From contig NZ_SMFY01000002.1 of the NCBI RefSeq assembly GCF_004339465.1, positions 124,001 to 188,000 of the forward strand: a DNA stretch of 64,000 nt, given 5' to 3'. Origin of the DNA: Ancylobacter aquaticus (GTDB taxonomy: Bacteria > Pseudomonadota > Alphaproteobacteria > Rhizobiales > Xanthobacteraceae). Under the pieces are notes generated by a model. That model ran no database searches, was not told the origin of the DNA, and saw nothing but the letters and a program-made list of their open reading frames with translations. Position numbers and translations under genes: made by a program. Positions 6,373 to 44,506 of the stretch are shown piece after piece (position 1 is the stretch's first letter; the number at the start of each line of letters is the position of its first letter).

Positions 6373-7764
6373 TCAGCCGATGGCGGCCGAGACCGCCTCG
6401 ACAGCGCCGCGCGTGGCATCCACCACGATATCGGCTTCCTCCCGGGTCAGGCATAGCGGCGGCGCGAAGCCCAGAATATCGCCCTGCGGCATGGCGCGGG
6501 CGATGACGCCCCGCTCCAGCAAAGCGGCGGCGACGCGCGGGCCGACTTTCTCCGTGGTCTCGAAGAAGGTGCGGTCGTCGCGGTCGCGCACCAGTTCCAC
6601 CGCCGCCAGCAGGCCTTCGCCGCGCACCTCGCCGACGAAGCGATGGCCGCCCAGCGCCTCCTTCAGCGCCTCATTGAAATAGGCACCGGTCTCGCGGGCG
6701 TTGGTGACGAGGTCGAGTTCGTCCACGAGTTCGAGGTTGGCGACGCCGGCGGCCGTGCAGAGCGGGTGCGAGGAATAGGTCCAGCCATGGCCGATCGGGC
6801 CGTATTCGTCCGACCCCTGCTCCAGGATGCGCCAGACCTTGTCGGAAACGATCACGCCCGACAGCGGCGCATAGGCGGAGGTGAGGCCCTTGGCGATGGT
6901 GATCAGGTCCGGCTTGATGCCGTAATGATCGGAGCCGAACATGCTGCCCAGCCGCCCGAACCCCGTCACCACCTCGTCGGCGATCAGCAATATGTCGTGC
7001 TTCTTCAGCACCGCCTGTATCTTCGGCCAGTAGCCGGCGGGGGGAGGGACGATGCCGCCGGTGCCGAGCACCGGCTCGCCGATGAAGGCAGCAATGGTGT
7101 CCGGTCCCTCGGCCTGGATCATCTCTTCCAGCCTGTCGGCGCAATGCTGGGAAAACGCCTCCTCGCTCATCGAGCGATCCGTGCGGCGGAAATAGTAGGG
7201 CGCCTCGGTGTGCAGGATCGGCGCGCGCGGCAGGTCGAACATATTGTGGAAGCCGGCGAGGCCGGTGAGGCTTCCGGTCATCACGCCGGAGCCGTGATAG
7301 CCGCGCCAGCGCGAGATGATCTTCTTCTTTTCCGGTCGGCCGAGCACGTTGTTAATGTACCAGACCAGCTTGATGTTGGTCTCGTTGGCATCCGACCCCG
7401 ACAGGCCGAAGAACACCCGGCTCATGCCGGCCGGCGCGCGCTCGATCACCATGCGGGCGAGGCGGATGGAGGGCTCCGAGCCGTGGCTGGCATAGGCGTG
7501 GTAATAGGCGAGCTTCGAGGCCTGCTCGGCGATGGCGTCGGTGATCTTCTTTCGGCCATAGCCGACATTCACGCAGTACAGCCCGCCAAAGGCGTCGAGG
7601 CTGCGGCGCCCCTCGCGGTCGACGATATAGACGCCCTCCGCGCCGGTGATGATGCGGTTCGGCGTCTCCCCCCGCGCATGCTGGGCCATGTGGGTGGACG
7701 GGTGGAAGAAATGGTCGCGGTCCCAGCTGTCGAGCTCGTTACCGCGGGTGCCGTTTTCAAGCAT
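6373..7764 (-). CDS. doeD: Class III aminotransferase, probable diaminobutyrate transaminase of ectoine catabolism
   Basis: A 463-aa PLP enzyme of the class III (omega-amino acid) aminotransferase family. Lys292 in TIAKGLTSAY should form the Schiff base and Asp263 in IADEVVTGFGR contacts the pyridine nitrogen; SGSDANETN near 122 binds the cofactor phosphate. In this operon it should convert L-2,4-diaminobutyrate to aspartate semialdehyde. The ATG at 7764 has GGAG 8 nt upstream and begins 25 bp after the doeC stop; an upstream ATG at 7812 would run into doeC and is disfavoured. It is the last gene of the ectoine operon. Sequence alone would also permit a general omega-amino acid:pyruvate transaminase; the assignment relies on the neighbours. 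Confidence 0.82.
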   Translation of the reverse strand: MLENGTRGNELDSWDRDHFFHPSTHMAQHARGETPNRIITGAEGVYIVDREGRRSLDAFGGLYCVNVGYGRKKITDAIAEQASKLAYYHAYASHGSEPSIRLARMVIERAPAGMSRVFFGLSGSDANETNIKLVWYINNVLGRPEKKKIISRWRGYHGSGVMTGSLTGLAGFHNMFDLPRAPILHTEAPYYFRRTDRSMSEEAFSQHCADRLEEMIQAEGPDTIAAFIGEPVLGTGGIVPPPAGYWPKIQAVLKKHDILLIADEVVTGFGRLGSMFGSDHYGIKPDLITIAKGLTSAYAPLSGVIVSDKVWRILEQGSDEYGPIGHGWTYSSHPLCTAAGVANLELVDELDLVTNARETGAYFNEALKEALGGHRFVGEVRGEGLLAAVELVRDRDDRTFFETTEKVGPRVAAALLERGVIARAMPQGDILGFAPPLCLTREEADIVVDATRGAVEAVSAAIG

Positions 7765-7789
7765 CTGAATCTCCGTGTTTTTCCCGCCC

Positions 7790-9298
7790 TCAGCCGAGGT
7801 CGAGGCAGACATATTTCAGGTCGGTGAAGGCTTCGAGGCCGTGGCGGGAGCCTTCGCGGCCGAGGCCGGACTGCTTCATCCCGCCGAAGGGGATCGGCGC
7901 GCCGGTGATCTTGACGCGGTTGATCGCCACCATGCCGTACTCCAGCGCCTGCGCCATCCGCGCCGCGCGGGCGCCATCGCGGGTGACGACATAGGCGACG
8001 AGCCCATATTCGGTGGCGTTGGCGCGGGCGATCACCTCCTGCTCCGTGTCGAAAGGGGCGAGGGCGGCGACGGGGGCGAAGGTCTCCTCGCGCATGATCA
8101 GCGCCTCTTCCGGCACGTCGGCGAGCACGGTGGGAGCAAGGAATAGCGGGCCGGGCATCGCGCGCTCCGGGGTCAGGCGCCGGGCACCGTGCGCCAGCGC
8201 GTCGTCGATCTGCGCCTGCGCCTTGGCCACGGCCTGCGCGTGCATCAGCGGGCCGATCTCGGTGCCCTCGTCGAGCCCATGGCCGACGCGCAGCCGCGTG
8301 ACACGCTCAGCGAAGGCGGCGCAGAAGCGGGGATAAAGTGCGCGCTGGACATAGATCCGGTTAGCGGCGAGGCAGTCTTGTCCCGACGTGGCGAACTTGG
8401 CGTCGATGGCGATGTCCACCGCACGGTCGAGGTCAGCATCGTCGAACACGATCAGCGGCGCGTGACCGCCAAGTTCCATGACGACGCGCTTCATGCTGGT
8501 GGCCGCGTTCCGGGCGACCATGCGACCGACCTCGGTGGAGCCGGTGAAGCTCACCGCGCGCACCCGCACATCGGCGCAGAACGTTTCGGCGATCGGCGCG
8601 GGTTCGCCGGTGACGACGTTGAACACGCCGGCGGGAAAGCTGGCACGTTCCGCCAGTTCCGCCAGCGCGAGCGCAGAGAGCGGCGTGTGGGAGGAGGGAT
8701 GCGCGACAAGGGTGCAGCCGGCCGCCAGCGCCGCCGCCGCCTTGCGCGTCAGCATGGCGGAAGGGAAGTTCCACGGCGTCAGCAAGGCCGCGACACCAAC
8801 CGGCTCGCGGCTGACCGACATCTGCGCGCCGGGGAGGTGGCTGGTCACGCCCTCCACATTCACCCGCAGCGCCTCCTCCGCGTAATAGGCGATGAAGGAG
8901 GCGGCATAGGCGATCTCGCCGCGCGATTCTGCCAGCGGCTTGCCCTGCTCGATCGTCATCAGCAAAGCGAGGTCCTCAGTGGCCTCCAGCATCAGCATGT
9001 GCCAACGGCGCAGGATGCCGGCGCGCTCCTGCGGACGACGCGATTTCCACGAGGGAAAGGCGCGATGGGCGGCGTCCACCGCCCGCGTCGCCGCTTCCGC
9101 GCCGAGGGCGGCAACCTCCGCCACCGGCGTGCCGTCTGCGGGGTCATTGACGGAGAAGGTCCGCCCGTCGGCGGCACCCGTCCATTTGCCGTCGACATAG
9201 GACAGGGTGCGCAGAAGCCGCGGATCGGACAGGCGCGACAAGCCGGGGTGGCCGGCGGGATCGCCGGCCAGACGTTCGGTGCGGGCAGGCGCGGTCAT
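7790..9298 (-). CDS. doeC: NAD(P)-dependent semialdehyde dehydrogenase, probable aspartate-semialdehyde dehydrogenase DoeC
   Basis: A 502-aa aldehyde dehydrogenase resembling succinate-semialdehyde dehydrogenases. Asn177 in TPWNFPS, Glu275 in MELGGHAP and Cys309 in SGQDC are the catalytic residues. FTGSTEVGR near 251 is the nucleotide-fold glycine motif. In ectoine breakdown it should oxidise aspartate semialdehyde to aspartate. The cofactor-ribose lysine of the usual KPAxxTP motif is His200 (VAHPSSHTP), a rare change. GAGGAG lies upstream of the ATG. It stands between ehuA (131 bp gap) and doeD. Confidence 0.85.
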   Translation of the reverse strand: MTAPARTERLAGDPAGHPGLSRLSDPRLLRTLSYVDGKWTGAADGRTFSVNDPADGTPVAEVAALGAEAATRAVDAAHRAFPSWKSRRPQERAGILRRWHMLMLEATEDLALLMTIEQGKPLAESRGEIAYAASFIAYYAEEALRVNVEGVTSHLPGAQMSVSREPVGVAALLTPWNFPSAMLTRKAAAALAAGCTLVAHPSSHTPLSALALAELAERASFPAGVFNVVTGEPAPIAETFCADVRVRAVSFTGSTEVGRMVARNAATSMKRVVMELGGHAPLIVFDDADLDRAVDIAIDAKFATSGQDCLAANRIYVQRALYPRFCAAFAERVTRLRVGHGLDEGTEIGPLMHAQAVAKAQAQIDDALAHGARRLTPERAMPGPLFLAPTVLADVPEEALIMREETFAPVAALAPFDTEQEVIARANATEYGLVAYVVTRDGARAARMAQALEYGMVAINRVKITGAPIPFGGMKQSGLGREGSRHGLEAFTDLKYVCLDLG

Positions 9299-9428
9299 GA
9301 CGGCTCCTCTGTCAACGCGACAAGCCTAGGCGCGCGGCTGCCGACAGGGTTTCCGAAGAAAGGAAGGCTCACCGAAAGGACACCGGAACCTGGCCGTTCC
9401 GCCGAAGAAATCTCGGCGGCCATATCCA

Positions 9429-10208
9429 CTAGCCCAGCACGGAGGCGAGGAACTCGCAGGTGCGCGGATGGCTGGGGGCAGTAAAGATCGCCTCCGGGCT
9501 GCCCTGCTCGCAGATGCGCCCCTTGTCGAAGAAGCATACGCGATCCGAGACTTCGCGGGCAAAGCGCATCTCGTGCGTCACCAGCAGCATGGTCAGGTCA
9601 TGCTCATGGGCGAGATCGCGGATCACCGCCAGCACCTCGCCGACCAGTTGCGGGTCGAGCGCCGAGGTCGGCTCGTCGAACAGCAGCACACGCGGGCGCA
9701 TGGCCAGCGCGCGGGCGATGGCAACGCGCTGCTGCTGGCCGCCGGAGAGCTGGGAGGGGAAGTGATCCTTCTTGTCCACCAGCCCCACCAGCGCCAGCAG
9801 GTCGAGCGCCCGCGCCTCGGCCTCAGCCCGCGAAAGGCCCAGCACCCGTACCGGCGCCTCCGCCACATTGCGCATCACGCTCATATGCGGAAACAGGTTG
9901 AAGCTCTGAAACACCATGCCGACATGGCTGCGAATGTCGCGCAGATGCCGCTCCGACGCCTTGAACGGGCCGGTGCCAGCCGGCTCCTGATAGTCCATCC
10001 CGGCCAGGGTCAGCCTTCCCTCCTGGAAGGGCTCCAGCGTCATCAGGATGCGCAGCACGGTGGATTTTCCCGAGCCGGACGGGCCGATGAGCGTGACCTT
10101 CTCGCCCGGCGCGACCTCGAAATTGAAGTCGTCGAGCACGGTGAGCGCGCCGAAGCGCTTGGTCACGCCGGCGAACTGGATCAGCGGCGGCGTCGCGTTC
10201 TCGGTCAT
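9429..10208 (-). CDS. ehuA: Ectoine/hydroxyectoine ABC transporter ATP-binding protein EhuA
   Basis: A 259-aa ATPase with Walker [11 protein letters not shown]-loop [11 protein letters not shown], signature [15 protein letters not shown], Walker [12 protein letters not shown] and switch His in LVTHEMRFA. The correct start is the ATG at 10208, overlapping the ehuD stop; the open frame continues upstream only as an out-of-frame reading of ehuD. It energises the EhuCD membrane channel for ectoine import. Its assignment to Ehu rests on adjacent ehuB/C/D and the ectoine catabolic genes on both sides. Confidence 0.88.
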
Positions 10209-34445: not shown

Positions 34446-37064
34446 ATGCTGCATCTGTCCGTGGCCATCGCCTCGCTCGGCGGCCTGTTGTTCGGCTACG
34501 AGACGGGCGTCGCCGCAGGGGCGTTGCAGCAGGCCGTCGGCGGATGGGGCCTCGACCGCTTCGCCTTGCTGCTGGTGAGCACGGGCACGCTGGTCGGCGC
34601 CCTTTTCGGCGCGCTCGTCAGCGGCTGGCTGTCCGATCGCATCGGCCGGCGCGACGTCATCATGGCGACGGCCGCGCTCTTCACGCTCGGAGCCTTCTCG
34701 GGCGCGGTGGCACCGTCGATCGAGGTGCTCTTCGTCGCCCGCCTCATCGTCGGGGTTGCCGTGGGCGCCATGTCGGCGGTCGGTCCGACCTACATTGCCG
34801 AAATCGCGCCGGCCCGGTCGCGCGGTGCGCTGGTAACGGCTTTCCAGCTGGCTATCACGCTGGGCGTGCTGCTGGCCTATGGCGCCGACGAGTTCTTCTA
34901 CGATGTGCCGGGCGGCTGGCGCACCATGCTGGGTCTCGGCGCCGCTCCCGCGCTTCTGCTGGCCGGGGCGGCGCTGCTCCTGCGGGAATCGCCGCTGTGG
35001 CTCGATCTTCAGGATGCGCAGGAGAGGTCCGGCTCCCACGGGGAGGGGACGGGCGAGGCGAGCCCGTTCTCGATTCAGGGCCGGCAGGCGCTGCTGCTCT
35101 GCGTCGGCCTGTTCTTCTTCCAGCAGTTCGTCGGCATCAACACCCTGCTCTATTTCGCCCCCTCGATCATGGAGGGCGTCGACTTCAGCCTGGGTGGCGG
35201 GTTGCTGGCGGGCGATGCGCTGCCCTTGGGAATCGTCAACGTGCTGGCGACGATCTGCGCCATAGGCCTGATCGACCGGGTCGGCCGCCGGCCGCTGCTG
35301 CTGGCCAGTTTCATCGGATCGGCCGCGGGCCTTGCCCTTGCCGGCGCGGGTCTGGCCTTCAGCGTTTCGGAGCCGGGTCCCGGCCAGGCCATGGCCGCCG
35401 CCGGCGTGTTTCTGTTCGTGGCCTCCTTCGCCATCGGCCTGGGGCCGATCCCTTGGGTGACGGCGGTCGAGATATGCCCGATCCGGATACGCGGCATGGC
35501 AATCGGCCTGGTCGCTGCCTCCCATTGGCTGTTCGACGGTATCGCGTCGCCGATAAGCCTGGTGGGCGCCGACGAGCCCACGCGGGCGGGCATCTTCGCC
35601 GTCTATGCCGGCATCGCGGTCACAGGCTTCTTCCTGTTCCGGCGCGCCTTTCCGGAATGCAAAGGGCTCGCTCTTGCCACGATCGACGCCCGGGCTGCGG
35701 CGGCGGCCGCCGCGATGCGCGCGAGGGGCAGCCTGTTCGTGCACTACGCGGTCACGGCGCTCGTCACCACCGGAGGTCTGCTCAACGGCTTCAATTTCGC
35801 CATCACCGCTGCGGCCATCGTCCTGCTGGCGCGCGATTGGGGGCTGGGCTCTTTCGAGCAGGGCGCCGTGGTCAGCACGCTGGTCCTCGGCCTCGCGGTG
35901 GGCTCCTTTCTCGCCGGCGGATTGGCCGACAGGTTCGGACGGCGCTATCTCCTGATGTCGACGGCGGCGCTGTTCGTCGCCGGCGCGTTCCTGTCGGCAC
36001 TGGCACCCTCGCTGATAGCGCTGCTGGTGGCGCGGGCGGCGGTGGGGTTGGCGATCGGCATCGCGTCGCCGACGACCGGCATCTATGTCGCCGAAATCTC
36101 GCCCAGCGCCATTCGCGGACGCCTGCTGTCATTCGAGGCGGCCACCTATGGAGCCGGTGCGATCCTCGCCTATTGCGTCGGCATCTGGTTCGAGGCGACA
36201 CCCGAGGGCTGGCGCTACATGTTCGCCTTCATCGCCGTGCCGAGCACGATCTACGGCCTGCTCCTGCTGCCGCTACCGGAATCGCCGCGCTGGCTGGCGA
36301 TGCAGGGACGCCACGCCGCCGCGCGCCGCGTGCTGCGCCAGTTCGATGAACGCGACGTCGACCACGTCCTCGCCGAGATGGAAACCGGGCAGCCGGAGGA
36401 GGGCGGGGGCTCCTGGCGGCAGCTGGCGTCGCGCGTCAACCGGCCGATCGTCGTGCTGGGCGTGACGCTGATGTTCCTTATCGTGTTCTGCGGCTGGGAC
36501 ATGGTGCTGTTCTACGCACCAACCCTGCTGGACGAGATCGGCTTCGAGGACACCACCGTCAATTTCGTCACCACTCTTGGCCTCAGCGTGGTGTTTCTCG
36601 TGGCCACCCTCATATCGCTCGGCATTGTCGACCAGGTGGGCCGCAAGCCACTGGTGGTCAGCGGGCTTGTCCTCATGTCCGGCTGCCTCGCCCTGCTGTC
36701 GCTTCTGCACGGGAGCGCGGCCGAGCCGGGCGGGGTTGCCGCCTGGGCCATGGTCGCCGTGCTCGCGGTGTTCGTTGCCGTCTTCGCCCTGACACTGGGA
36801 CAGGTTGGCGAGATCGTGGTGGCGGAGATCTTTCCGCAAGCGATCCGGGGCCCCGGCACCAGCCTGTCTCACGGCATGCGGAGCCTGTTCGCCTTCGCAT
36901 TCACCCTGACCTTTCCCTTCGTGATCGACACGGCGGGCCTCGGCCTCACGTTCCTGAGCTATGCTATCATCAACATTCTGGGGGCTGCCTACCTGTTCCG
37001 CTACATGCCGGAAACGCGGAACAAGACTCTGGAAGATATCGCCCGCTACTGGCGCGAACGGTGA
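34446..37064 (+). CDS. Tandem-fused double sugar-porter MFS transporter
   Basis: An 872-aa membrane protein, about twice the family length. Residues 1-408 form a complete sugar-porter unit: LFGYETGVAAGAL in helix 1, SDRIGRRD and later IDRVGRRP loops, RESPLWL after helix 6, and a PECKG motif at its end. After a 20-odd residue Ala-rich linker, residues about 433-872 form a second complete unit: GFNFAITAAAI, ADRFGRRY, PESPRWL, VDQVGRKP and the terminal PETRNKTLEDI. Both should have 12 helices, so both keep the same orientation. The halves are diverged, not a recent duplication. It is last in the sugar operon and probably moves the operon's substrate or product. Confidence 0.9.
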   Translation: MLHLSVAIASLGGLLFGYETGVAAGALQQAVGGWGLDRFALLLVSTGTLVGALFGALVSGWLSDRIGRRDVIMATAALFTLGAFSGAVAPSIEVLFVARLIVGVAVGAMSAVGPTYIAEIAPARSRGALVTAFQLAITLGVLLAYGADEFFYDVPGGWRTMLGLGAAPALLLAGAALLLRESPLWLDLQDAQERSGSHGEGTGEASPFSIQGRQALLLCVGLFFFQQFVGINTLLYFAPSIMEGVDFSLGGGLLAGDALPLGIVNVLATICAIGLIDRVGRRPLLLASFIGSAAGLALAGAGLAFSVSEPGPGQAMAAAGVFLFVASFAIGLGPIPWVTAVEICPIRIRGMAIGLVAASHWLFDGIASPISLVGADEPTRAGIFAVYAGIAVTGFFLFRRAFPECKGLALATIDARAAAAAAAMRARGSLFVHYAVTALVTTGGLLNGFNFAITAAAIVLLARDWGLGSFEQGAVVSTLVLGLAVGSFLAGGLADRFGRRYLLMSTAALFVAGAFLSALAPSLIALLVARAAVGLAIGIASPTTGIYVAEISPSAIRGRLLSFEAATYGAGAILAYCVGIWFEATPEGWRYMFAFIAVPSTIYGLLLLPLPESPRWLAMQGRHAAARRVLRQFDERDVDHVLAEMETGQPEEGGGSWRQLASRVNRPIVVLGVTLMFLIVFCGWDMVLFYAPTLLDEIGFEDTTVNFVTTLGLSVVFLVATLISLGIVDQVGRKPLVVSGLVLMSGCLALLSLLHGSAAEPGGVAAWAMVAVLAVFVAVFALTLGQVGEIVVAEIFPQAIRGPGTSLSHGMRSLFAFAFTLTFPFVIDTAGLGLTFLSYAIINILGAAYLFRYMPETRNKTLEDIARYWRER

Positions 37065-37493: not shown

Positions 37494-38063
37494 TCAGCCG
37501 CCGGCGACGACGGGGGACGCTGGCGCGGTCGAGGTTTCTGTCTCCGGCGCGCGGATCATCAGCCAATAGGGGTCGCTCTCTCCGGCCGGCGTGAACCCCT
37601 TGCGCTGATAGAGTCGCTGGGCGGGATTGTTCTTCTCGACATGGATGGAAACGATGCGTCCGTGGCGACTGGCCCCGGCGCAGGCCAAATCGAGCAGTGC
37701 GCCGCCAATGCCCCGGCTCCGGGCCTCCGGCAGCAGGCTGATATCGACGATGCGATGCTCGCGCGGGCCTCGGTGAAGATAGAACCGGCCGATGGGGGCG
37801 CCGTCGCGCTCGATGATGAGAAACAGCGCATCCGCGTAGTAGCGGGCATAATGCGCAACCTGACAACGGAACTGGTCGGCCAGAAATGCGGACCGAACCT
37901 CGTCCGGCCAGCCATTGCCCTGGAACTCGGGCCCGCGCACGCTGGCAAACAGCGCGGCGAGGAACGGGGCGTCCTCGCGGATTTCAGGGCGCAGGCTCAC
38001 CGACAGGCCGTGAAGGGTTATCGGCGAGCTCACGAAATCAGCAACCATCCCCGTGTCAGTCAT
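37494..38063 (-). CDS. GNAT-family N-acetyltransferase
   Basis: A 189-aa acetyltransferase. EARSRGIGGALLDLA near residue 118 is the acetyl-CoA pyrophosphate-binding Arg/Gln-x2-Gly-x-Gly/Ala loop, followed by HVEKNNPAQRLYQRKGFTPAG, the conserved C-terminal strand-helix pattern. The ATG at 38063 overlaps the end of the upstream tail-collar gene by 8 bp, so the acetyltransferase is coupled to the three tail-collar genes. GNAT enzymes are often found next to such genes; the substrate is unknown. Confidence 0.85.
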   Translation of the reverse strand: MTDTGMVADFVSSPITLHGLSVSLRPEIREDAPFLAALFASVRGPEFQGNGWPDEVRSAFLADQFRCQVAHYARYYADALFLIIERDGAPIGRFYLHRGPREHRIVDISLLPEARSRGIGGALLDLACAGASRHGRIVSIHVEKNNPAQRLYQRKGFTPAGESDPYWLMIRAPETETSTAPASPVVAGG

Positions 38064-38604
38064 AGTTGGGATACGCGCCTTCGAGGCAAATGCAGTAATT
38101 GAGCGCGAGGTAAGGCTGCATGTTCTCGTGCGGGGTACCTTTGCCGGTGACGCTGATGCTGGCCGGTGACAGCGCGGTGTCGGGCGTTTCCTTGATGTAG
38201 CAATCCGAGAATCCCGGGCTGTTTTCAATCTCGTAGCGGCCGATATAGGAGTCTGCCACAGGCCCACGGGACATCTGGCTGTCGGGGATGGATCCGCCAT
38301 AGGTCGAAAGTACATGCGTATGAGGTGGCGCATGCTGCTCGTAGAGGCGGGTAGCAGCGTCGCCGTCGGCCTGGCCGATTCTAGTCGCGTATGGTGTCCC
38401 GCCTGATGCGTTCCAGCCCATCACTGCCCGACCTGCAAGTCTGGGCAGATTGAACACCAAATGCTGGCCACCATAATTGTAGCCGATGATCGCCCAGAGC
38501 ACCTGATGCTGCTGCACAGGGAATTCCGCCCCATTGCAGTAGGCCCAACCGTTTGGCGGGTAATTGAAACAAAACGCTCGAATTTCACCTATAAAGGCGT
38601 CCAT
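38056..38604 (-). CDS. Tail-collar domain protein (MdpB/microcystin-dependent protein type), copy 3
   Basis: A 182-aa protein with the phage tail-collar fold: FIGEIRAFCFNYPPNGWAYC at the N-terminus, then a GGQHLVFNLPRLAGRAVMG motif near residue 45 and AYPNYD at the C-terminus, with PPHTHVL near 94 in the central His region. The first motif has lost the canonical Asp-Gly and the second reads Leu-Pro-Arg-Leu instead of Pro-Asp-Leu-Arg, so this is the most diverged of three consecutive paralogues. There are no other phage genes nearby, so it is a domesticated or non-phage structural protein. Confidence 0.82.
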   Translation of the reverse strand: MDAFIGEIRAFCFNYPPNGWAYCNGAEFPVQQHQVLWAIIGYNYGGQHLVFNLPRLAGRAVMGWNASGGTPYATRIGQADGDAATRLYEQHAPPHTHVLSTYGGSIPDSQMSRGPVADSYIGRYEIENSPGFSDCYIKETPDTALSPASISVTGKGTPHENMQPYLALNYCICLEGAYPNYD

Positions 38605-38616
38605 GGCCGTTCTCCT

Positions 38617-39168
38617 TTAAGCTTCGCTAGGGTAAAGGCCAGTCAGAGCAATGATATAATTGATGGAGAGGGACGGCATGAGGTTGGAGTGCGGCGTTTG
38701 TGCGAGACTGTTTTCACCGATCGATTTGGGGTGAAGATCGCGTTTGTTCAGGTTGGCCGTATTCACGATATAAAATAGCGCGGGCTTGTCTGTGGAAGCA
38801 GCGGAATGCGCGGCAGATAAGATTCGGTCGGTGGGAGAACTCGATTGGGCGTCGCTGCTTGAGGCCATCAGCCGATGATTGTGCGCCGGTAGGTGCTCGC
38901 TCGTCAGTTCGACCTTGTCGAAACCGCTGGCGTCAGCCGTCCTGCGTGGGGAGAGGCCGGGACCCTGGCCGCTTCCCACCGCGAGCTTGCCGCGAAGATC
39001 GGGTATGCCAAATGTCGTCCTTCCATCTCCTCCCCAGGTGAATTCCAGAAGTGAATACAGGGCTTGATATTCGTTGATGTTGAGCAGCCGCCCATCGCAT
39101 AACGCCCAGCCGGAGGGAATTCTCTGTCCAGCGAAGTTTCGTATTTCGCCTACATAACAATCGACCAT
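38617..39168 (-). CDS. Tail-collar domain protein (MdpB type), copy 2
   Basis: A 183-aa paralogue of its neighbours. CYVGEIRNFAGQRIPSGWALC, then TTFGIPDLRGKLAVGSG near residue 50, LPAHNHRLM near 93 and the C-terminal SINYIIALTGLYPSEA. The order strand motif, PDLRG loop, His-rich centre and aromatic C-terminus is that of the tail-collar/MdpB family. It is 12 bp upstream of copy 3 and 10 bp downstream of copy 1. Confidence 0.85.
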   Translation of the reverse strand: MVDCYVGEIRNFAGQRIPSGWALCDGRLLNINEYQALYSLLEFTWGGDGRTTFGIPDLRGKLAVGSGQGPGLSPRRTADASGFDKVELTSEHLPAHNHRLMASSSDAQSSSPTDRILSAAHSAASTDKPALFYIVNTANLNKRDLHPKSIGENSLAQTPHSNLMPSLSINYIIALTGLYPSEA

Positions 39169-39178
39169 TTTCGCCTCG

Positions 39179-39730
39179 TTACTCTTTAGAGGGCCACACG
39201 CCGGTAACGCATATGCAGTACGTCACGACGGCGAAGGGCTGCATGTTGTTGTGTGCCGCACCTGCTCCCTTGGGCCCGACCATTGCCTCGTTCAGGGCGA
39301 TAAGGTTGCTTCCCAAAAGCGGCCTGTAGAGAAAGCGCTCTTTGTGGGCCTCCGAATCCGGGCCGATTGTCGCGAGGCATGCGTCTTTCGAGCTAACGGT
39401 GGTGCCGGGAGCCGTGGACGCACGCAGGGGGTGTGTGTGAGGCGGCATCGTCTCGGCGGTCAGCGCGACACTCTCGGCCCCGCCTTTGCTGGCGAAGGGG
39501 CGGGGAGTGTTCGGAGGGTCTGCATCCTGGCCCATCCCGAGCGGCACCCTTCCCCGTAGATCCGGGAGGGCGAAGTCGGTGTCCCCATTGCCGCCGAAAC
39601 TGTGTCCCAGCAGTCCGTAAAGCGCTTGGTACTGCCGTGTCGGGAGAATTCGGCCATCCGCCGGCACCCAGCCGTTCGGTACGCGGTTGTACGCAAAGGC
39701 GCGGATCTCGCCGATAAAGCTGTCGGTCAC
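39179..39730 (-). CDS. Tail-collar domain protein (MdpB type), copy 1
   Basis: A 183-aa paralogue with the best-preserved family motifs: FIGEIRAFAYNRVPNGWVPA, FALPDLRGRVPLGMGQ near residue 50, MPPHTHPL and the C-terminal VVTYCICVTGVWPSKE. The start is the GTG at 39730, with GGGGAGG 6-7 nt upstream; the frame runs on to 39817 but those residues are not part of the fold. It is the first gene of the minus-strand operon and is divergent from the RiPP-like locus. Confidence 0.86.
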   Translation of the reverse strand: MTDSFIGEIRAFAYNRVPNGWVPADGRILPTRQYQALYGLLGHSFGGNGDTDFALPDLRGRVPLGMGQDADPPNTPRPFASKGGAESVALTAETMPPHTHPLRASTAPGTTVSSKDACLATIGPDSEAHKERFLYRPLLGSNLIALNEAMVGPKGAGAAHNNMQPFAVVTYCICVTGVWPSKE

Positions 39731-39951
39731 AGTAAGCCTCCCCTGACCCACCACCTCGGAACATGGCGGTGCCCTGCTACAATTACAACCATAACGAGTA
39801 TTATAATCTATCGTCAATCAATGACTGTGTTCCGCAACAAATAATTCCTGCAGGCGCATCGGCGGCCGTCGGGAGCACGTTGACGGCAAGGAAGGGGTGC
39901 AGCATCCTCTATGTCGATCAATGGTTGTATCGCGATATTCCGGAGGCAAAG
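39731..39951. promoter_or_regulatory. Divergent AT-rich promoter region between tail-collar operon and RiPP-like locus
   Basis: This 221-bp gap has a markedly AT-rich core (about 39776-39850) in GC-rich surroundings. The core includes a self-complementary ATTATAAT that could serve as a -10 element in either direction. It probably drives both the tail-collar operon and the small precursor gene. No -35 element could be assigned with confidence. Confidence 0.4.
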
Positions 39952-40110
39952 ATGGGCGAGGCACGGGGCGTCGAGGCGGCGAACTGCGTAACCAGCGGCG
40001 AAATGGCTCCTGCGCGACCCAAATGGGAAACGCCGGAATTGACCGTGACGCCGGCCGCTGATGCGAGGCTGACGGCAAATCAGCCGGGTGACGACGACGG
40101 CACGTCCTGA
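39952..40110 (+). CDS. Putative RiPP (lasso-like) precursor peptide
   Basis: A 52-aa gene with a strong GGAGG 5 nt before its ATG, ending 9 bp before the asparagine synthetase homologue. Residues 25-30 (WETPEL) resemble the Tyr-x2-Pro-x-Leu element that lasso leader peptides present to the PqqD-like RRE protein, with Trp for Tyr, and a Thr follows 16 residues after the Trp. The C-terminal part (about residues 41-52) is Asn/Gln/Asp/Gly-rich and ends Gly-Thr-Ser, giving acidic side chains and a terminal Ser. The predicted core of only 10-12 residues is shorter than known lasso peptides. Identification rests on position, ribosome site and leader motif. Confidence 0.65.
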   Translation: MGEARGVEAANCVTSGEMAPARPKWETPELTVTPAADARLTANQPGDDDGTS

Positions 40111-40119
40111 GCCTTCGGC

Positions 40120-41994
40120 ATGGCCTTCTGCGGCGGGCAGGTATCGCTGGACATCGTCCGGCGGTGCATTTCCGTTCTGAGCGGGGGTGATCGCGCTGCC
40201 TCTCTCCACAATGAGCCTCCCATGGCCGTGGGGAGCCAATCACCCGCCGGGCTGGCGGTGGAGCCTGGCGTCGTTGCCGCCTTCGACGGTCGTCTCGACA
40301 ACCGCAGCGATCTCGCGCGCCAACTCGGGCTGAGCGATATCGGCCGCGTCACGGACAGTGCGTTCCTCGGCGCGGCCTATGCCAAATGGGGAAGCGGCTG
40401 CTTCCATCGCCTGATCGGCGACTATGCCTGCGCCGTCTGGGACGGCAACAGCCGGGAATTCCTCCTGGCGACCGACCCCGGCGCCCTGCGCACCCTGTTC
40501 TTCTGGTCCGATCAAAGCCGCCTGCTGTTCGCCACCGAGCAGCGCGGCTTGTTCGCATGTCCCGACGTGCCGCGCGAGATCGACCAGGACCAGATGGCGG
40601 CGTGGCTCTGCATGCTGCCCCGCGAGCCGCTGCGCACCTTCTTTCGCGGCGTCAACCGGGTGCCTCCCGGCCATTTCATCCGCTGGTCGGCAGGGAATTT
40701 CACCGTGGAGCGCTGGTGGCGGCCCGAGGACGTGCCGACGCTGCATCTGCCGCGTGACGAGGATTATGAGGAAGCGCTGCGCGAGGCGCTCAGCGAGGCG
40801 GTGCGGGCCCGCATCCGGCCCGGTGAGCGCATCGGCAGCCACCTCTCCGGTGGGCTCGACAGTTCGACCGTCACGGCGATGGCGGCGCGGGAACTGGCGG
40901 CGCAGGGGCGGGGACTGATCGCCTTCACGGCGGCGCCGCGCCATCCGCAACCCGCCAGTCGCAACCGCTTTACCGATGAATGGCCGCATGCCGCCGAGGT
41001 GGCGGCGCGTTACGCCAATGTCGAGCATGTACGGATCGACAACGATGCCGAGCCGCTTCTCGATGCGCTGGATCGGCGCGAGGCCGGCCATGACTGGCCG
41101 TTGCTGAACGCTGTCAACAATGTCTGGATCACCGGCATCTATCGCGAGGCCCGCCGCCGGCGGCTCGACGTGGTGTTGCAAGGCGCGATGGGCAACATGA
41201 CCATCAGCTATGCCGGCGGCGACCTTCTGGCGGGCCGCCTGCGCGGCGGCGATCTGGGCGGGGCGTTGCGGACGGCCCTGGACCTGCGCCGGGGGGGCGG
41301 GCGCTCATGGCTGGGTATCGCCGGGCAGGCGGCCGACAGCGTGCTGCCCGCGCCGATGCGCCGGCGACTCAGGGCCGCCCTCGGCAAAAAGGAAATCGAG
41401 CTCTACGACTACTCGGCGATCCGCCCGGAGTTTCTCAAGCGCTCCGGGCTGGAAGAGCGCGCCATCGAGCTGGGCGGAAGCCTCGGCAACCTTGCCCGAG
41501 GCGACAGCCGCGCGCTGCGGCTCGCGGTGTTCGACCGTTCCGATCATCGCGGCCATACCGCCATGTCGACCCGCCGGCTCTTCGGCATCGACGTGCGCGA
41601 TCCGACCAGTGACCGGCGGGTCATCGAGCTGTGCCTCTCCATTCCGGACGAGCAGTTCGCGCTCGGCGGGGTGCCGCGCTCGCTGATCCGGCGCGCGATG
41701 CGGGGCGTCGTGCCGGATGTGGTGCTCGACGAGCGGCGCAAGGGACTTCAGGCGGCGGACTGGCGGGCCAGCTTCCAGGAGGCGCTGCCGGGCCTGCGGG
41801 CCGAGGTGGCGCGCCTGCGCAACAGCTCCTTCGCCAGCGAATGCCTCGACCTCGATCGAATGGACGCCCTTCTCGATAGCTGGCCCGGCATCGGAGACTC
41901 CAGCGAGAAGGCGACCTATGACTATCTCTGCACCTTCAGCCGCGCGCTCACCGCCGGCCGGTTCATCCGCCGGGTCGAGGGTGGCAACGGGTAG
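40120..41994 (+). CDS. Asparagine synthetase homologue of lasso-peptide cyclase type
   Basis: A 624-aa protein with an N-terminal glutamine amidotransferase-like domain (about 1-200) and a C-terminal AsnB ATP-pyrophosphatase domain. SGGLDS at 243-248 is the PP-loop that adenylates a carboxylate. The amidotransferase Cys at position 2 is absent, so glutamine hydrolysis is not expected. The canonical Gly-Glu-Gly-Ala-Asp-Glu loop reads GAMGNMTISYAGG near 355, a change also seen in lasso C proteins that form the macrolactam. It lies 9 bp behind the precursor candidate. Function: probably ATP-dependent amide bond formation on that peptide. Confidence 0.85.
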   Translation: MAFCGGQVSLDIVRRCISVLSGGDRAASLHNEPPMAVGSQSPAGLAVEPGVVAAFDGRLDNRSDLARQLGLSDIGRVTDSAFLGAAYAKWGSGCFHRLIGDYACAVWDGNSREFLLATDPGALRTLFFWSDQSRLLFATEQRGLFACPDVPREIDQDQMAAWLCMLPREPLRTFFRGVNRVPPGHFIRWSAGNFTVERWWRPEDVPTLHLPRDEDYEEALREALSEAVRARIRPGERIGSHLSGGLDSSTVTAMAARELAAQGRGLIAFTAAPRHPQPASRNRFTDEWPHAAEVAARYANVEHVRIDNDAEPLLDALDRREAGHDWPLLNAVNNVWITGIYREARRRRLDVVLQGAMGNMTISYAGGDLLAGRLRGGDLGGALRTALDLRRGGGRSWLGIAGQAADSVLPAPMRRRLRAALGKKEIELYDYSAIRPEFLKRSGLEERAIELGGSLGNLARGDSRALRLAVFDRSDHRGHTAMSTRRLFGIDVRDPTSDRRVIELCLSIPDEQFALGGVPRSLIRRAMRGVVPDVVLDERRKGLQAADWRASFQEALPGLRAEVARLRNSSFASECLDLDRMDALLDSWPGIGDSSEKATYDYLCTFSRALTAGRFIRRVEGGNG

Positions 41995-42033
41995 CCGCCG
42001 CCTTGTCGTTGTGGGATTCGTCTGCGCGCAGGG

Positions 42034-42870
42034 TCAGCCGTAACCTACACGGGCCATGACCCGTGAATGCGTCCCGACGACACGCTCTGCCAGAACGGCC
42101 GGCAGTGCCGTGCGCCATTCGCCGGCTTTCCCCGCGCGGAAGAACGGCGCCGTGGATGTCCGGGAGCGTTCGCGAAAACCGCCGCGCGCCTCCTGACCGG
42201 CGAGCGCGCTGAAGCGGCTCTCTTCCAGGCTGCGGGAGACGGCGTGGCGCGTGTCGTCCAGGTCGAGAAACCGGCACAGCTGCGTGAAGCTCTCAAGCGG
42301 GTCGGCCAGCAAATCCTCATAGCGCAGCATCAGGAGTTGCACGCCGCCCGCGTCGAGCCAGCTCTCGACATGGGCGCTCCAGGACGAGATCCACTGCTCA
42401 ACATTCGCGTTGAGGCGTCTCGGCGAGTGACCGATGCAAAATGCGGTGTCGGCCATCCGGTCGACGCTGTCATCGAGCGACCAGCCGAAATGGGCGGCTG
42501 CTGAAACCGCGACATCGCGCGGGTCGCGGACGATGCAGACGACACGATCTATGGCATCGGGCGGGATCGCCGGCTCGCGCGCACCGGGCGGGACGAGATT
42601 GGAATCGTGCGTCTTGTAGAATCCGGGCTGCTCCCTTGCGATGCGGCGGCTGGTGAGCGGCCGAAGCAGGGCGACCTCCTGCCGACTGAGGTCCGAATGC
42701 TCCAGCCCCGCATGGCAATCCTGCAGGCTGCGCGAGGTGAGGTTCGGAACCTCTGACAGGTCCGCATTAAGGTCGATCGGCCGGCCGTCGCGCAGATGGC
42801 TGGCGAGGAAGGCGCGCAGCCAGGTGTTGCCGGACTTGGGATAGGAGGCGATGAGGGTGAGCCCGCTCAT
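42034..42870 (-). CDS. PAPS-dependent sulfotransferase
   Basis: A 278-aa sulfotransferase. PKSGNTW at residues 11-17 is the 5'-phosphosulfate-binding loop, IVRDPRDVAVS at about 113-123 is the 3'-phosphate-binding motif, and His88 in FYKTHDS is in the position of the usual catalytic base. It overlaps the HprK-like gene by 4 bp as the last gene of a three-gene minus-strand operon that converges on the asparagine synthetase homologue. In this setting it is likely to sulfate a side chain of the peptide product. Confidence 0.87.
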   Translation of the reverse strand: MSGLTLIASYPKSGNTWLRAFLASHLRDGRPIDLNADLSEVPNLTSRSLQDCHAGLEHSDLSRQEVALLRPLTSRRIAREQPGFYKTHDSNLVPPGAREPAIPPDAIDRVVCIVRDPRDVAVSAAAHFGWSLDDSVDRMADTAFCIGHSPRRLNANVEQWISSWSAHVESWLDAGGVQLLMLRYEDLLADPLESFTQLCRFLDLDDTRHAVSRSLEESRFSALAGQEARGGFRERSRTSTAPFFRAGKAGEWRTALPAVLAERVVGTHSRVMARVGYG

Positions 42871-43787
42871 CCCCGTATCGTCGCCGCGATGGCGTCGAGC
42901 CAGCGGTCGGGCTGCGCGTCTGCCCGGCGCGTCAGCCGGTAGACAGGCACGTCATTGGCGATCAGGGCGCGCGCCTGGAACAACGTTTCGGCACGCCCCA
43001 GCGCGTGCCCGACCTGCAGCCGGAACGTCTCGGCCTCCAGCGCGGCCATGATGTCGAGCGGCGCCGCCAGCCGCTGGATACCTTCTCCCTCACCAGAACC
43101 AGCGCGGCGAAGGAGGAAGATCGCCCGCAGCGGGAGGGGCTCGCGCACGCCGGCGTGAGGCGCGCGAAAATGGAATTTCTCCTGTCCGCGCCGGTTGCGC
43201 TCCAACCCTTCCGGCGACAGCGCCGCATCTTCCATGGTGTCGCGCCAGAGCTTCAGCCGGGGGAAGCAAGGACGCACCCGGGGCGGCTCGCACGTCTCGA
43301 TCACGCAGATATCGTCGGAGACCACCGAATGGCCGTGTTGGGCGAACCGCAGCGCGAGGGTGGACTTGCCCATGCCCGACGGACCGCAAAAGGCGACCGC
43401 GCCACCGTCGATCGCCACACTGGACGCGTGCAGCGGCAGCAGGGCGCGTTGATGGCACACCATGCCGAGCACCGAGCCGAGCAGGAAAAGCCGAATCTCG
43501 GCCTCGCTCGCCTCGGGCTGCGGGGCAATGGTGATGCCGCCCGACGGCCGCACGAGGAACCGCCCTACCATCGGCACCTGCAGCAAACCTGCGCCGGTAC
43601 CGTCGATCTGCAAGAGCGGGCTGATTTCCCGCCCCTCGGGCAGGCGTTCGTCAACCTCGCCGAGCCGGACGACGAGGTCGGGAATCCTGTCGTCGCCCTG
43701 CCAGTCGAGGAGCTCGGGCAGCGCAATGTCGGAGCGGATGCGCCAGCCGCAGAGTAGGCCGTCGGTCATGGGCACCGCCGCTGTCAC
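42867..43787 (-). CDS. HPr kinase-related protein (RiPP tailoring kinase candidate)
   Basis: A 306-aa protein resembling the catalytic core of HPr kinase/phosphorylase. GPSGMGKST at 135-143 is Walker A, VVSDDICV near 155-162 matches the following conserved Asp-Asp element, and LLPLHASSVAI precedes them as in HprK-related kinases. HprK-like enzymes in lasso clusters phosphorylate the C-terminal Ser of the precursor; the precursor candidate here ends in Ser. It overlaps both neighbours by 4 bp. A role in the phosphotransferase system is unlikely given the absence of ptsH. Confidence 0.85.
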   Translation of the reverse strand: MTAAVPMTDGLLCGWRIRSDIALPELLDWQGDDRIPDLVVRLGEVDERLPEGREISPLLQIDGTGAGLLQVPMVGRFLVRPSGGITIAPQPEASEAEIRLFLLGSVLGMVCHQRALLPLHASSVAIDGGAVAFCGPSGMGKSTLALRFAQHGHSVVSDDICVIETCEPPRVRPCFPRLKLWRDTMEDAALSPEGLERNRRGQEKFHFRAPHAGVREPLPLRAIFLLRRAGSGEGEGIQRLAAPLDIMAALEAETFRLQVGHALGRAETLFQARALIANDVPVYRLTRRADAQPDRWLDAIAATIRG

Positions 43788-44065
43788 GCGCGAATTTCGA
43801 TGAGCTTCCGGGCGTCGAGCAGGGCCAGAAAGGCAAGCACCTCCGCTTCGATGCGCGCCGCCTCGCCCTCATATTCGGCCTTGAGCGAACAGCAGAGGTC
43901 GCTGACCCGGACGGGCTGCTCCAGACGCTGCCAGATGCTGGTGGCTATGCCGTTCAGCCCGAAATAAAGGCCCTGCTCGACATCGAGCAGAACCCGCGTG
44001 TCACCGATGGCGGCCTCAAGCGGATGAGGCCGCCGAACGATCTCGGAGCTGGATGAAAGGGCCAT
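43784..44065 (-). CDS. PqqD-like RiPP recognition element protein
   Basis: A 93-aa protein of the PqqD family, a winged helix that binds leader peptides. Key features: ALSSSSEIVRRPHPLEAAIGD at the N-terminus, LLDVEQGLYFGLNGIATSIW near residue 28 with the conserved Asn-Gly/Ala-x2-Ile-Trp, then a helical C-terminus. It is the first gene of the PqqD-kinase-sulfotransferase operon. Stand-alone PqqD proteins (B1) work with a separate peptidase (B2), which I do not find here. Confidence 0.87.
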   Translation of the reverse strand: MALSSSSEIVRRPHPLEAAIGDTRVLLDVEQGLYFGLNGIATSIWQRLEQPVRVSDLCCSLKAEYEGEAARIEAEVLAFLALLDARKLIEIRA

Positions 44066-44193: not shown

Positions 44194-44493
44194 ATGGACA
44201 TCGCCGCGTTGACCATCCAGCACTTTGCGCCGCGCGTCGGCGAGAGTTTCGCGGTTGAGACCGGCCAACCCGGGCCGTTGCGGATTGTGCTGCGGGAAGC
44301 CGCGGTGCTCTCCGCGCGCGGCCGGCCGGACGGGCGCGACGGTTTCCAGCTGCTGTTTGAAGGCGAGGGGCCTTATTGCCTGGCCCAGCTCACCCACCGC
44401 TTGCACCATGACGCGCTGGGGGAGCTGGAAATGTTCCTCGTGCCCATAGCCGGCGATGGGAACCGCTTCACCTACCAAGCGATCTTCAGCTGA
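44194..44493 (+). CDS. DUF6916-like small protein
   Basis: A 99-aa protein with no signal peptide or membrane segment: FAPRVGESFAVETGQPGPL near residue 11, FQLLFEGEGPYCLAQLTHRL in the middle and ELEMFLVPIAGDGNRFTYQA at the C-terminus. This pattern matches a small beta-rich family often encoded next to tail-collar (MdpB-like) genes. A clear AGGAGAGGG precedes the ATG. It is divergent from pqqD, so the tail-collar and RiPP-like genes are interleaved. Confidence 0.7.
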   Translation: MDIAALTIQHFAPRVGESFAVETGQPGPLRIVLREAAVLSARGRPDGRDGFQLLFEGEGPYCLAQLTHRLHHDALGELEMFLVPIAGDGNRFTYQAIFS

Positions 44494-44506
44494 GGCGCCG
44501 CGCCGA

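Follow-up and report, generated by a model that had tools for sequence, protein, structure and literature searches.

A lasso-type peptide locus with kinase and sulfotransferase genes in Ancylobacter aquaticus and its probable leader peptidase encoded at a distance

We have analysed a 64,000-nucleotide stretch of the Ancylobacter aquaticus genome (contig NZ_SMFY01000002.1, positions 124,001 to 188,000; hereafter the window), which holds a locus for a ribosomally synthesised and post-translationally modified peptide (RiPP). We consider it likely that this locus belongs to a split lasso-type pathway of the paeninodin kind, in which the peptide would be phosphorylated and probably sulfated, and in which the leader peptidase B2 would be encoded elsewhere in the genome. 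Among 30 Ancylobacter genomes, the sample for all genus counts given here, strong B2 matches (over 70 bits), the lasso-type cyclase and a group of phage tail collar-like proteins (the collars) co-occur in the same nine, and none of the three was found in the other 21. In the following, G numbers denote the compared genomes, G000 being the one that holds the window, and L numbers denote annotated genome stretches.

Results

The biosynthetic genes

On the plus strand of the window, an open reading frame (ORF) for a precursor peptide of 52 amino acids (aa) (39952..40110) is followed after 9 bp by the gene for a lasso-type macrolactam cyclase of 624 aa with an Asn-synthase domain (40120..41994), assigned by profile matches and motifs. 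The minus strand carries genes for a sulfotransferase of the 3'-phosphoadenosine 5'-phosphosulfate (PAPS) type (42034..42870; PF00685, 92.5 bits), an HprK-like kinase (42867..43787; Pfam, NCBIfam and motif evidence) and a PqqD-like leader-binding protein, a discrete RiPP recognition element (RRE) of the lasso B1 type (43784..44065; PF05402, 61.9 bits; NF033536, 51.8 bits against a cut-off of 80). The original prediction had described such a RiPP locus with a precursor, cyclase, leader binder, kinase and sulfotransferase, and profile and motif evidence supports this assignment: the coordinates of the precursor, the 9-bp gap and the cyclase all hold, the minus-strand genes overlap by 4 bp as described, and their names agree with Pfam and NCBIfam. 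The overlap between PqqD and HprK depends on a GTG start at 43787; it is retained in L081 and L106, and would vanish in L021, L024 and L104, where the HprK start was called at the equivalent of ATG 43769 (gene starts outside the window are the output of a simple purpose-written gene caller).

The gene arrangement is syntenic across the annotated Ancylobacter loci, and syntenic loci with a cyclase identity of 70-74% were found in Ancylobacter rudongensis, A. vacuolatus, A. dichloromethanicus and A. polymorphus. The consistent presence of a short upstream gene, which the original prediction had proposed to check, was borne out by six-frame translation, in that each of the nine Ancylobacter loci, including that of G157 with its cyclase deleted, holds one precursor-like ORF. 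The synteny and the nine precursor-like ORFs together argue that the arrangement is not due to chance.

The best NCBIfam model for the cyclase is NF033535, with 238.8 bits against a cut-off of 525. The protein has no N-terminal Cys nucleophile, and its motifs SGGLDS, GN-T-S (GNMTIS in the window) and RRKGLQAADW are kept in all six Ancylobacter copies compared. SGG-DS is common to the lasso-type cyclases of our alignment, and GN-T-S and RG-QAADW-like motifs occur in most of its rows. In the own genome, the sole other cyclase match reaching E 1e-20 scores 75 bits; it scores 314.6 bits with PF00733, compared with 109.5 bits for the window cyclase, and looks like an ordinary Asn synthetase. Therefore, the B2 of this genome is without any other cyclase partner.

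The lasso-kinase motif H-x14-G-x2-G-x-GKS-x15-DD is present in 6/6 Ancylobacter HprK copies, with spacing identical to that in the available text of PMC10368454. The PadeK kinase of paeninodin phosphorylates the C-terminal Ser of its precursor, according to the available text of PMC9266682, and the final Ser found in all nine precursors fits a kinase of this type acting on that residue. In the sulfotransferase, the motifs YPKSGNTW and RDPRDVAVS are likewise kept in six of six copies. The same motifs are present in the window protein, and we take them to be PAPS-binding. Its substrate could even be a small molecule. We dropped the idea that the sulfotransferase is tied to a [Ser/Thr]-Ser end of the peptide, since L033, L034 and L101 carry the enzyme and their precursors end in Ile-Ser or Leu-Ser. 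In G157, where the sulfotransferase is truncated, the precursor end is Ile-Ser. The ratio of non-synonymous to synonymous differences per site (pN/pS) is 0.24-0.42 across the four enzymes in five comparisons.

The precursor peptide

The window precursor has a KWETPEL motif in its leader, Ala at position -2 and the predicted core LTANQPGDDDGTS, with Asp at core position 8 and a C-terminal Ser. All nine Ancylobacter precursors share the WxxP leader motif and Ala(-2), counted from the conserved Trp. Core position 8 is acidic in every one of them (six Asp, three Glu), other core positions are acidic in at most three of nine, and the rest of the core is mostly hypervariable. Ser stands at core position 13 in 9/9, and a single core has a 14th residue, also Ser, so that the cores are of 13-14 residues. 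With an acidic frequency of 0.195, the chance of nine acidic residues out of nine at one of 13 positions is about 5e-6, a value that assumes independent cores, which these are not fully.

The precursor finder accepted only ORFs with an acidic residue within a 5-residue stretch and Ser or Thr at the end, which biases the counts for all loci other than the synteny-fixed Ancylobacter ones; eight of the nine main precursors were already visible in ORF lists or translations before it was used. Among 31 precursor rows from other loci, 23 were used and eight dropped (L025, L027, L037, L242, three of L248, and L251), and Thr(-2) was set by hand in L026 and L093. In these rows, Asp or Glu stands at core position 8 in 12/23 and at position 8 or 9 in 20/23. 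An 8-residue ring from Gly1 to Asp8 has been inferred for BsfA in the available text of PMC10368454.

In the pathway that we propose, the PqqD protein would bind the WxxPxL-like leader, the HprK-like kinase would phosphorylate the C-terminal Ser, and the sulfotransferase would probably sulfate a nearby Ser or Thr hydroxyl. The B2 protein, supplied from a distant chromosomal gene, would cut after Ala(-2)-x(-1), and the cyclase would join the alpha-amine of core residue 1 to Asp or Glu 8, giving an 8-residue ring and a tail of 5-6 residues, which may or may not be threaded.

Location of the leader peptidase B2

No B2 gene lies in the window, as the original prediction had stated for the surroundings of the locus. 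From this it had deduced a reduced pathway, in which the leader would be cleaved by a host protease or not at all; this deduction is not upheld, since the same genome encodes a true B2 elsewhere. The only PF13471 (B2) match at E <= 0.001 in the own genome lies on another contig (G000:C1:1357984-1358334) and scores 70.4 bits, and NCBIfam NF033537 ('lasso peptide biosynthesis B2 protein') recognises it with 89 bits against a cut-off of 33.

Nor is B2 consistently absent beside such cyclases, a point that the original prediction had proposed to check. In the genus comparison, strong PF13471 matches of 70.7-91.5 bits were found in 9/30 Ancylobacter genomes including the window's own, and matches to the window cyclase at E <= 1e-20 occur in exactly those nine. 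The cyclase match represents the orthologous locus in eight of the nine and another locus in G157. Weaker PF13471 matches of 38-45 bits were found in G152, G162, G163 and G167, and further ones in G022 and G171. The annotated ones belong to another gene set without cyclase, in which a PqqD-like, a weak B2-like and an HprK-like protein are encoded together (L088 of G162, 7268-9652; L090 of G022, 7728-9402; L092 of G171, 7583-9242). L088 also holds three short tandem peptides sharing a ...VTSGY stretch, and these sets resemble the linear phosphorylated, cyclase-less RiPPs described in the available text of PMC13381572.

In eight of the nine genomes, the B2 gene stands alone, flanked by an ABC permease gene on one side and a GntR gene on the other. 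Among 29 orthologous GntR sites, B2 adjoins eight and is absent from 21, and these eight are eight of the nine cyclase genomes. Where cyclase and B2 share a contig, they are 1.08 Mb (G160) and 0.91 Mb (G169) apart. In the ninth genome, G153, whose cyclase is 62% identical to that of the window, B2 lies inside the locus (stretch L081); a B2 gene at the locus in a relative is what the original prediction had named beforehand as evidence against itself. The order there is precursor, cyclase, the convergent sulfotransferase, HprK and PqqD genes, and then the gene of a DUF6916 protein (8517-8804) and B2 (8801-9244), which overlap by 4 bases. The corresponding site in the window, between the DUF6916 gene and the next gene (44494..44506), is empty.

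In a tree of 22 B2 proteins, the eight standalone proteins group with those of G153 and L025 at 93/97, below the tool's mark of 95. One relocation of B2 is the simplest reading, and B2 probably left the locus once, in the ancestor of eight of the nine carrier genomes. B2 appears constrained, with pN/pS of 0.33-0.39 in four comparisons and 0.56 in a fifth. We rejected the idea that Thr(-2) was lost because B2 departed, since G153 has Ala(-2) with B2 still in its locus. L025 (11395-11568) is the only non-Ancylobacter B2 that groups with the trans-B2 proteins, and the accompanying precursor likewise combines Ala(-2) with Asp at core position 8. A strict rule linking B2 type and Ala(-2) is opposed by L242 of G181, whose precursor has Ala(-2) and whose genome has its sole B2 (in L251) elsewhere in the tree.

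One B2 and several cyclase loci

Cyclase-profile matches and B2 genes were counted together in 18 genomes, and apart from the cases given below B2 and cyclase are neighbours in most of them. G169 has four cyclase-profile matches and one B2, G497 has two and one, and in G051 the B2 is 19 kb away from the cyclase. G181, from another family, has six cyclase-profile matches (296-638 bits) and one B2; the surroundings of four of the six were viewed (L242, L243, L244 and L251), and B2 adjoins only L251. The separation of B2 and cyclase in several genomes is therefore not a quirk of one species, and we infer that one B2 may be able to serve several cyclase loci.

Extra loci with a cyclase and precursors and no local B2 occur in G157, G158, G169 and G171, with PqqD in three of the four and a clear HprK in two. 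In G171, B2 lies in two pieces beside the extra cyclase (L093). L096 and L097 are cyclase loci without B2 that hold four and three differing tandem precursors, respectively, and all seven of their cores have Asp or Glu at position 8 and a terminal Ser.

Collar proteins and the hypervariable block

The neighbourhood is wider than the original prediction gave, as three collar genes, a GNAT acetyltransferase gene and a DUF6916 gene flank the biosynthetic genes. On the minus strand, upstream of the precursor gene, lie collar protein 3, which is phage tail-fibre receptor-binding-like (39179..39730; PF07484, 80.9 bits when scanned from the TTG start at 39817), collar protein 2 (38617..39168; PF07484, 81.8 bits; PHROG tail families), collar protein 1 (38056..38604; PF07484, 59.9 bits; PHROG tail families) and the GNAT acetyltransferase of the collar module (37494..38063; PF13508/PF00583). 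The DUF6916 protein of the module is encoded on the plus strand (44194..44493; PF21880, 87.7 bits). Beyond the module, an MFS gene at 34446-37064 encodes a double sugar-transporter-type protein.

The collars are stand-alone proteins of 182-183 aa arranged in a triplet, and H98, H100 and H160 do not vary among 41 rows. An AlphaFold2 model of collar 3 (mean predicted local distance difference test score 76.5, predicted template modelling score 0.48) matches the cyanophage A-1(L) tail fibre (8kec, E 2.8e-5) and the receptor-binding domain of the T4 short tail fibre (1ocy, E 6.6e-4), both with a template modelling score near 0.34; only its well-modelled N-terminal part is a safe fold match. Phage tail proteins in 442 records match the collars, every one under 60% identity. 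No other phage gene was recognised in 37-46 kb, and the proteins scanned or compared at 34-50 kb were metabolic, regulatory, transport or RiPP proteins, with no dedicated phage-gene scan made of the whole window.

Six Ancylobacter genomes (five for the precursor) were compared gene by gene. The three collars averaged 44, 50 and 48% identity, the precursor 34% and the N-terminal ~50 residues of the cyclase 36%; the remainder of the cyclase averaged 77%, GNAT 67% and the other enzymes 73-75%. The collars, the precursor and the cyclase N-terminus thus form a hypervariable block, apparently exchanged together. Differences per synonymous site (pS) amount to 0.60-0.69 within the block, compared with 0.44-0.46 for GNAT and the enzymes. 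In the pair G022/G157, TetR is 98% identical (pS 0.11), an L-PSP homologue 95% (0.16) and B2 90% (0.07), compared with 44% for collar 3 (0.66) and 35% for the precursor (0.76), while HprK and PqqD are intermediate (pS 0.35 and 0.26). These jumps at silent sites point to recombinational replacement rather than fast evolution alone, with the reservation that pS may be inflated by alignment at 35-45% identity and by lower guanine-cytosine content in collars 1 and 2. By these comparisons, the peptide and the collars look like a matched pair.

In a set of 33 cyclase loci, in which the Ancylobacter main locus is counted once, collars lie within 10 kb in 7/9 loci with a sulfotransferase and in 4/24 without (Fisher p = 0.002, only a guide, given the relatedness of the loci and the early end of some stretches). 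DUF6916 is found in 5/9 and 0/24, respectively. Within Ancylobacter, L021, L023 and L104 lack the DUF6916 gene and L024 has just a fragment of it. In L101, the HprK, sulfotransferase and DUF6916 genes are consecutive on one strand. Collar and lasso gene sets are mixed in L251, L033, L034 and L101.

Across the order, collars occur in 64/397 genomes, and a cyclase-profile match over 290 bits was found in six of these 64, with the top three candidates per genome scored. Accordingly, we rejected the idea that the collars are specific to lasso loci everywhere. In L252-L259, from Hyphomicrobiales, collar triplets form a module of their own, usually with GNAT and DUF6916, and the 20 kb viewed there hold no lasso genes. 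In A. polymorphus (L024:6156-7835), two collar domains and GNAT are fused in one 559-aa frame, a fusion linking acetylation to the collars. Collar-domain proteins of 1239 and 1252 aa lie beside a lasso-like precursor in L099:11162-14881 and L179:5939-9697, respectively, and the 16 kb of L179 hold the precursor and the giant collar protein without a cyclase.

Exporter, defence and mobility

The original prediction had also noted the lack of an exporter, and this stands, as no lasso-type ABC exporter was recognised at the locus. Genes for HlyD, an ATPase and an ABC-2 permease adjoin the standalone B2 in eight genomes. We considered them as the missing exporter and rejected this, since the permease occurs in 25/30 genomes irrespective of B2. 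In 11 genomes without standalone B2 and with permease and GntR on one contig, these two genes are ~55-140 kb apart. An MFS transporter and a MerR regulator (73-92% alike) lie near lasso-type loci of A. vacuolatus, G160 and the distant G098 (L022:4225-6004, L106:13208-14984, L026:7047-8801) and are absent from the other 17 stretches tested; this pair is a possible exporter or a coincidence.

A known anti-phage defence system was rejected, with no PADLOC family among the six proteins tested. A plasmid-borne locus was also rejected, because relatives at E <= 1e-40 were present in only four plasmid records and stayed below 60% identity in each.

Discussion

Several points weigh against a split lasso-type pathway with B2 acting in trans. 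The Thr usual at position -2 of lasso leaders is absent, being Ala in 9/9 Ancylobacter precursors, and the published exceptions carry Ile or Val in the available text of PMC10368454. Thr(-2) precursors also occur in G169, G158, G157 and G171, so one B2 would have to accept both residues. A core of 13-14 residues would be short for a threaded lasso. The cyclase and PqqD both score under the NCBIfam lasso cut-offs, the eight standalone B2 proteins form their own group with only 85/94 in the 22-protein tree (the tool's mark for the first number is 95), and the co-occurrence of B2 and the locus reflects few evolutionary events, namely one clade plus G153. No exporter was identified, the ABC genes beside B2 being genus-wide. 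Finally, G401 has a cyclase match and no B2, and in G157 the cyclase of the locus is deleted and only another cyclase locus is left. The stretch concerned (L178:6931-7649) lacks the cyclase and part of the sulfotransferase, and retains the precursor, PqqD, HprK and the collars.

Other explanations account for parts of these observations. In a reduced RiPP pathway, the leader would stay on or be cut off by an unrelated host protease, and the B2 at a distance would have another role. The position of B2 outside the window and Ala(-2) in all nine loci would fit such a pathway, which we nevertheless regard as unlikely: the B2 of the own genome is conserved and has no other cyclase to serve, and G153, with B2 in its locus, likewise has Ala(-2). 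That the cyclase homologue links the peptide to another molecule, such as a collar protein or an amine, and forms no ring would agree with the short tail beyond residue 8 and with collars that are interleaved with lasso genes in several loci and apparently exchanged with the precursor. We find this quite improbable, given an acidic residue exactly at core position 8 in 9/9, a normal ring position in the available text of PMC10368454, and given the SGG-DS motif and, in most rows, GN-T-S and RG-QAADW-like motifs held in common with lasso-type cyclases. A decaying locus, which has lost or displaced B2 and exporter and makes no product, is suggested by the deletions in G157 and by the B2 split in two pieces at the other locus of G171; it appears very unlikely to us, as the frames are open, the motifs intact, the precursor pattern kept in 9/9 and pN/pS 0.24-0.42 in the four enzymes.

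The three tail-fibre-tip-like collars are likely functional partners of the precursor and may bind, carry or neutralise the peptide. We propose tentatively that peptide and collars form one unit, in which a phospho/sulfo-lasso-type peptide would be matched to tail-fibre-like receptor-binding proteins, as a delivery fibre, carrier or self-protection; peptide and fibre tips would change as one cassette, with the maturation enzymes left in place, and several such loci would share one trans B2 as a trimming hub. That the collars are unrelated neighbours, for example a prophage remnant with nothing to do with the peptide, is also a possibility that we take seriously without favouring it. The lasso-free collar sets of other Hyphomicrobiales (L252-L259), the cyclase match in only 6/64 collar genomes of the order, the matching phage tail proteins, all under 60% identity, and the absence of DUF6916 from L021, L023 and L104 and its fragment in L024 speak for it. 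On the other hand, collars in Ancylobacter are found only in the nine B2/cyclase genomes and in 0/21 others, collar genes stand among lasso genes in L033, L034, L101 and L251, and the collars diverge and appear exchanged together with the precursor.

The split lasso-type pathway resembles known systems in its parts, and the enzymes are all of known kinds. According to the available text of PMC9266682 and PMC10368454, paeninodin-type clusters share with it a discrete RRE, B2, cyclase and kinase, a Ser-ending precursor, a Y/WxxPxL leader and the spacing of the kinase motif. The Ancylobacter loci differ from them in the distant B2, the sulfotransferase, Ala(-2), the 13-14-residue core and the attached collar module, and the locus showed neither a nucleotidyltransferase nor an ABC exporter. 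Sulfotransferase genes near lasso clusters have been noted before: a putative one was reported in Firmicute clusters (PMC8498205), and a table in PMC10040529 lists B2, sulfotransferase, PqqD and Asn-synthase clusters of Pontixanthobacter with near-consecutive numbers. The available text of these two papers describes neither a collar module nor a distant B2, and a sulfated lasso peptide did not turn up in our literature search. RiPP enzymes encoded outside their clusters also have precedents. In lanthipeptide proteases and the citrulassin deiminase (PMC8960859, PMC12971885, in their available text), a needed maturation enzyme is likewise encoded elsewhere in the genome, whereas here it is the dedicated lasso leader peptidase that is unclustered, coexisting with several cyclase loci. 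No paper on a trans-acting lasso B2 was recognised in a literature search that largely lacked subscription papers. The collars share their domain and, by prediction, their fold with the receptor-binding domain of T4 gp12-like short tail fibres; in contrast to these, they form a stand-alone triplet beside RiPP genes, with no other phage gene recognised in 37-46 kb. No paper joining lasso peptides to tail collars or to Ancylobacter was found in the search.

Lasso clusters are usually mined by requiring precursor, B2 and cyclase side by side. This fails here although the genome holds the complete set, and together with the finding of one B2 in genomes with up to six cyclase matches, it indicates that searches could overlook such loci or take them for B2-independent ones; the original prediction is an example of such a misreading. 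To our knowledge, the function of most proteobacterial lasso loci is unknown. Should a trans-acting B2 cut both Ala(-2) and Thr(-2) leaders, it would be a portable peptidase, and the apparent co-exchange of precursor and tail-fibre tip offers a testable lead to the function of the peptide.

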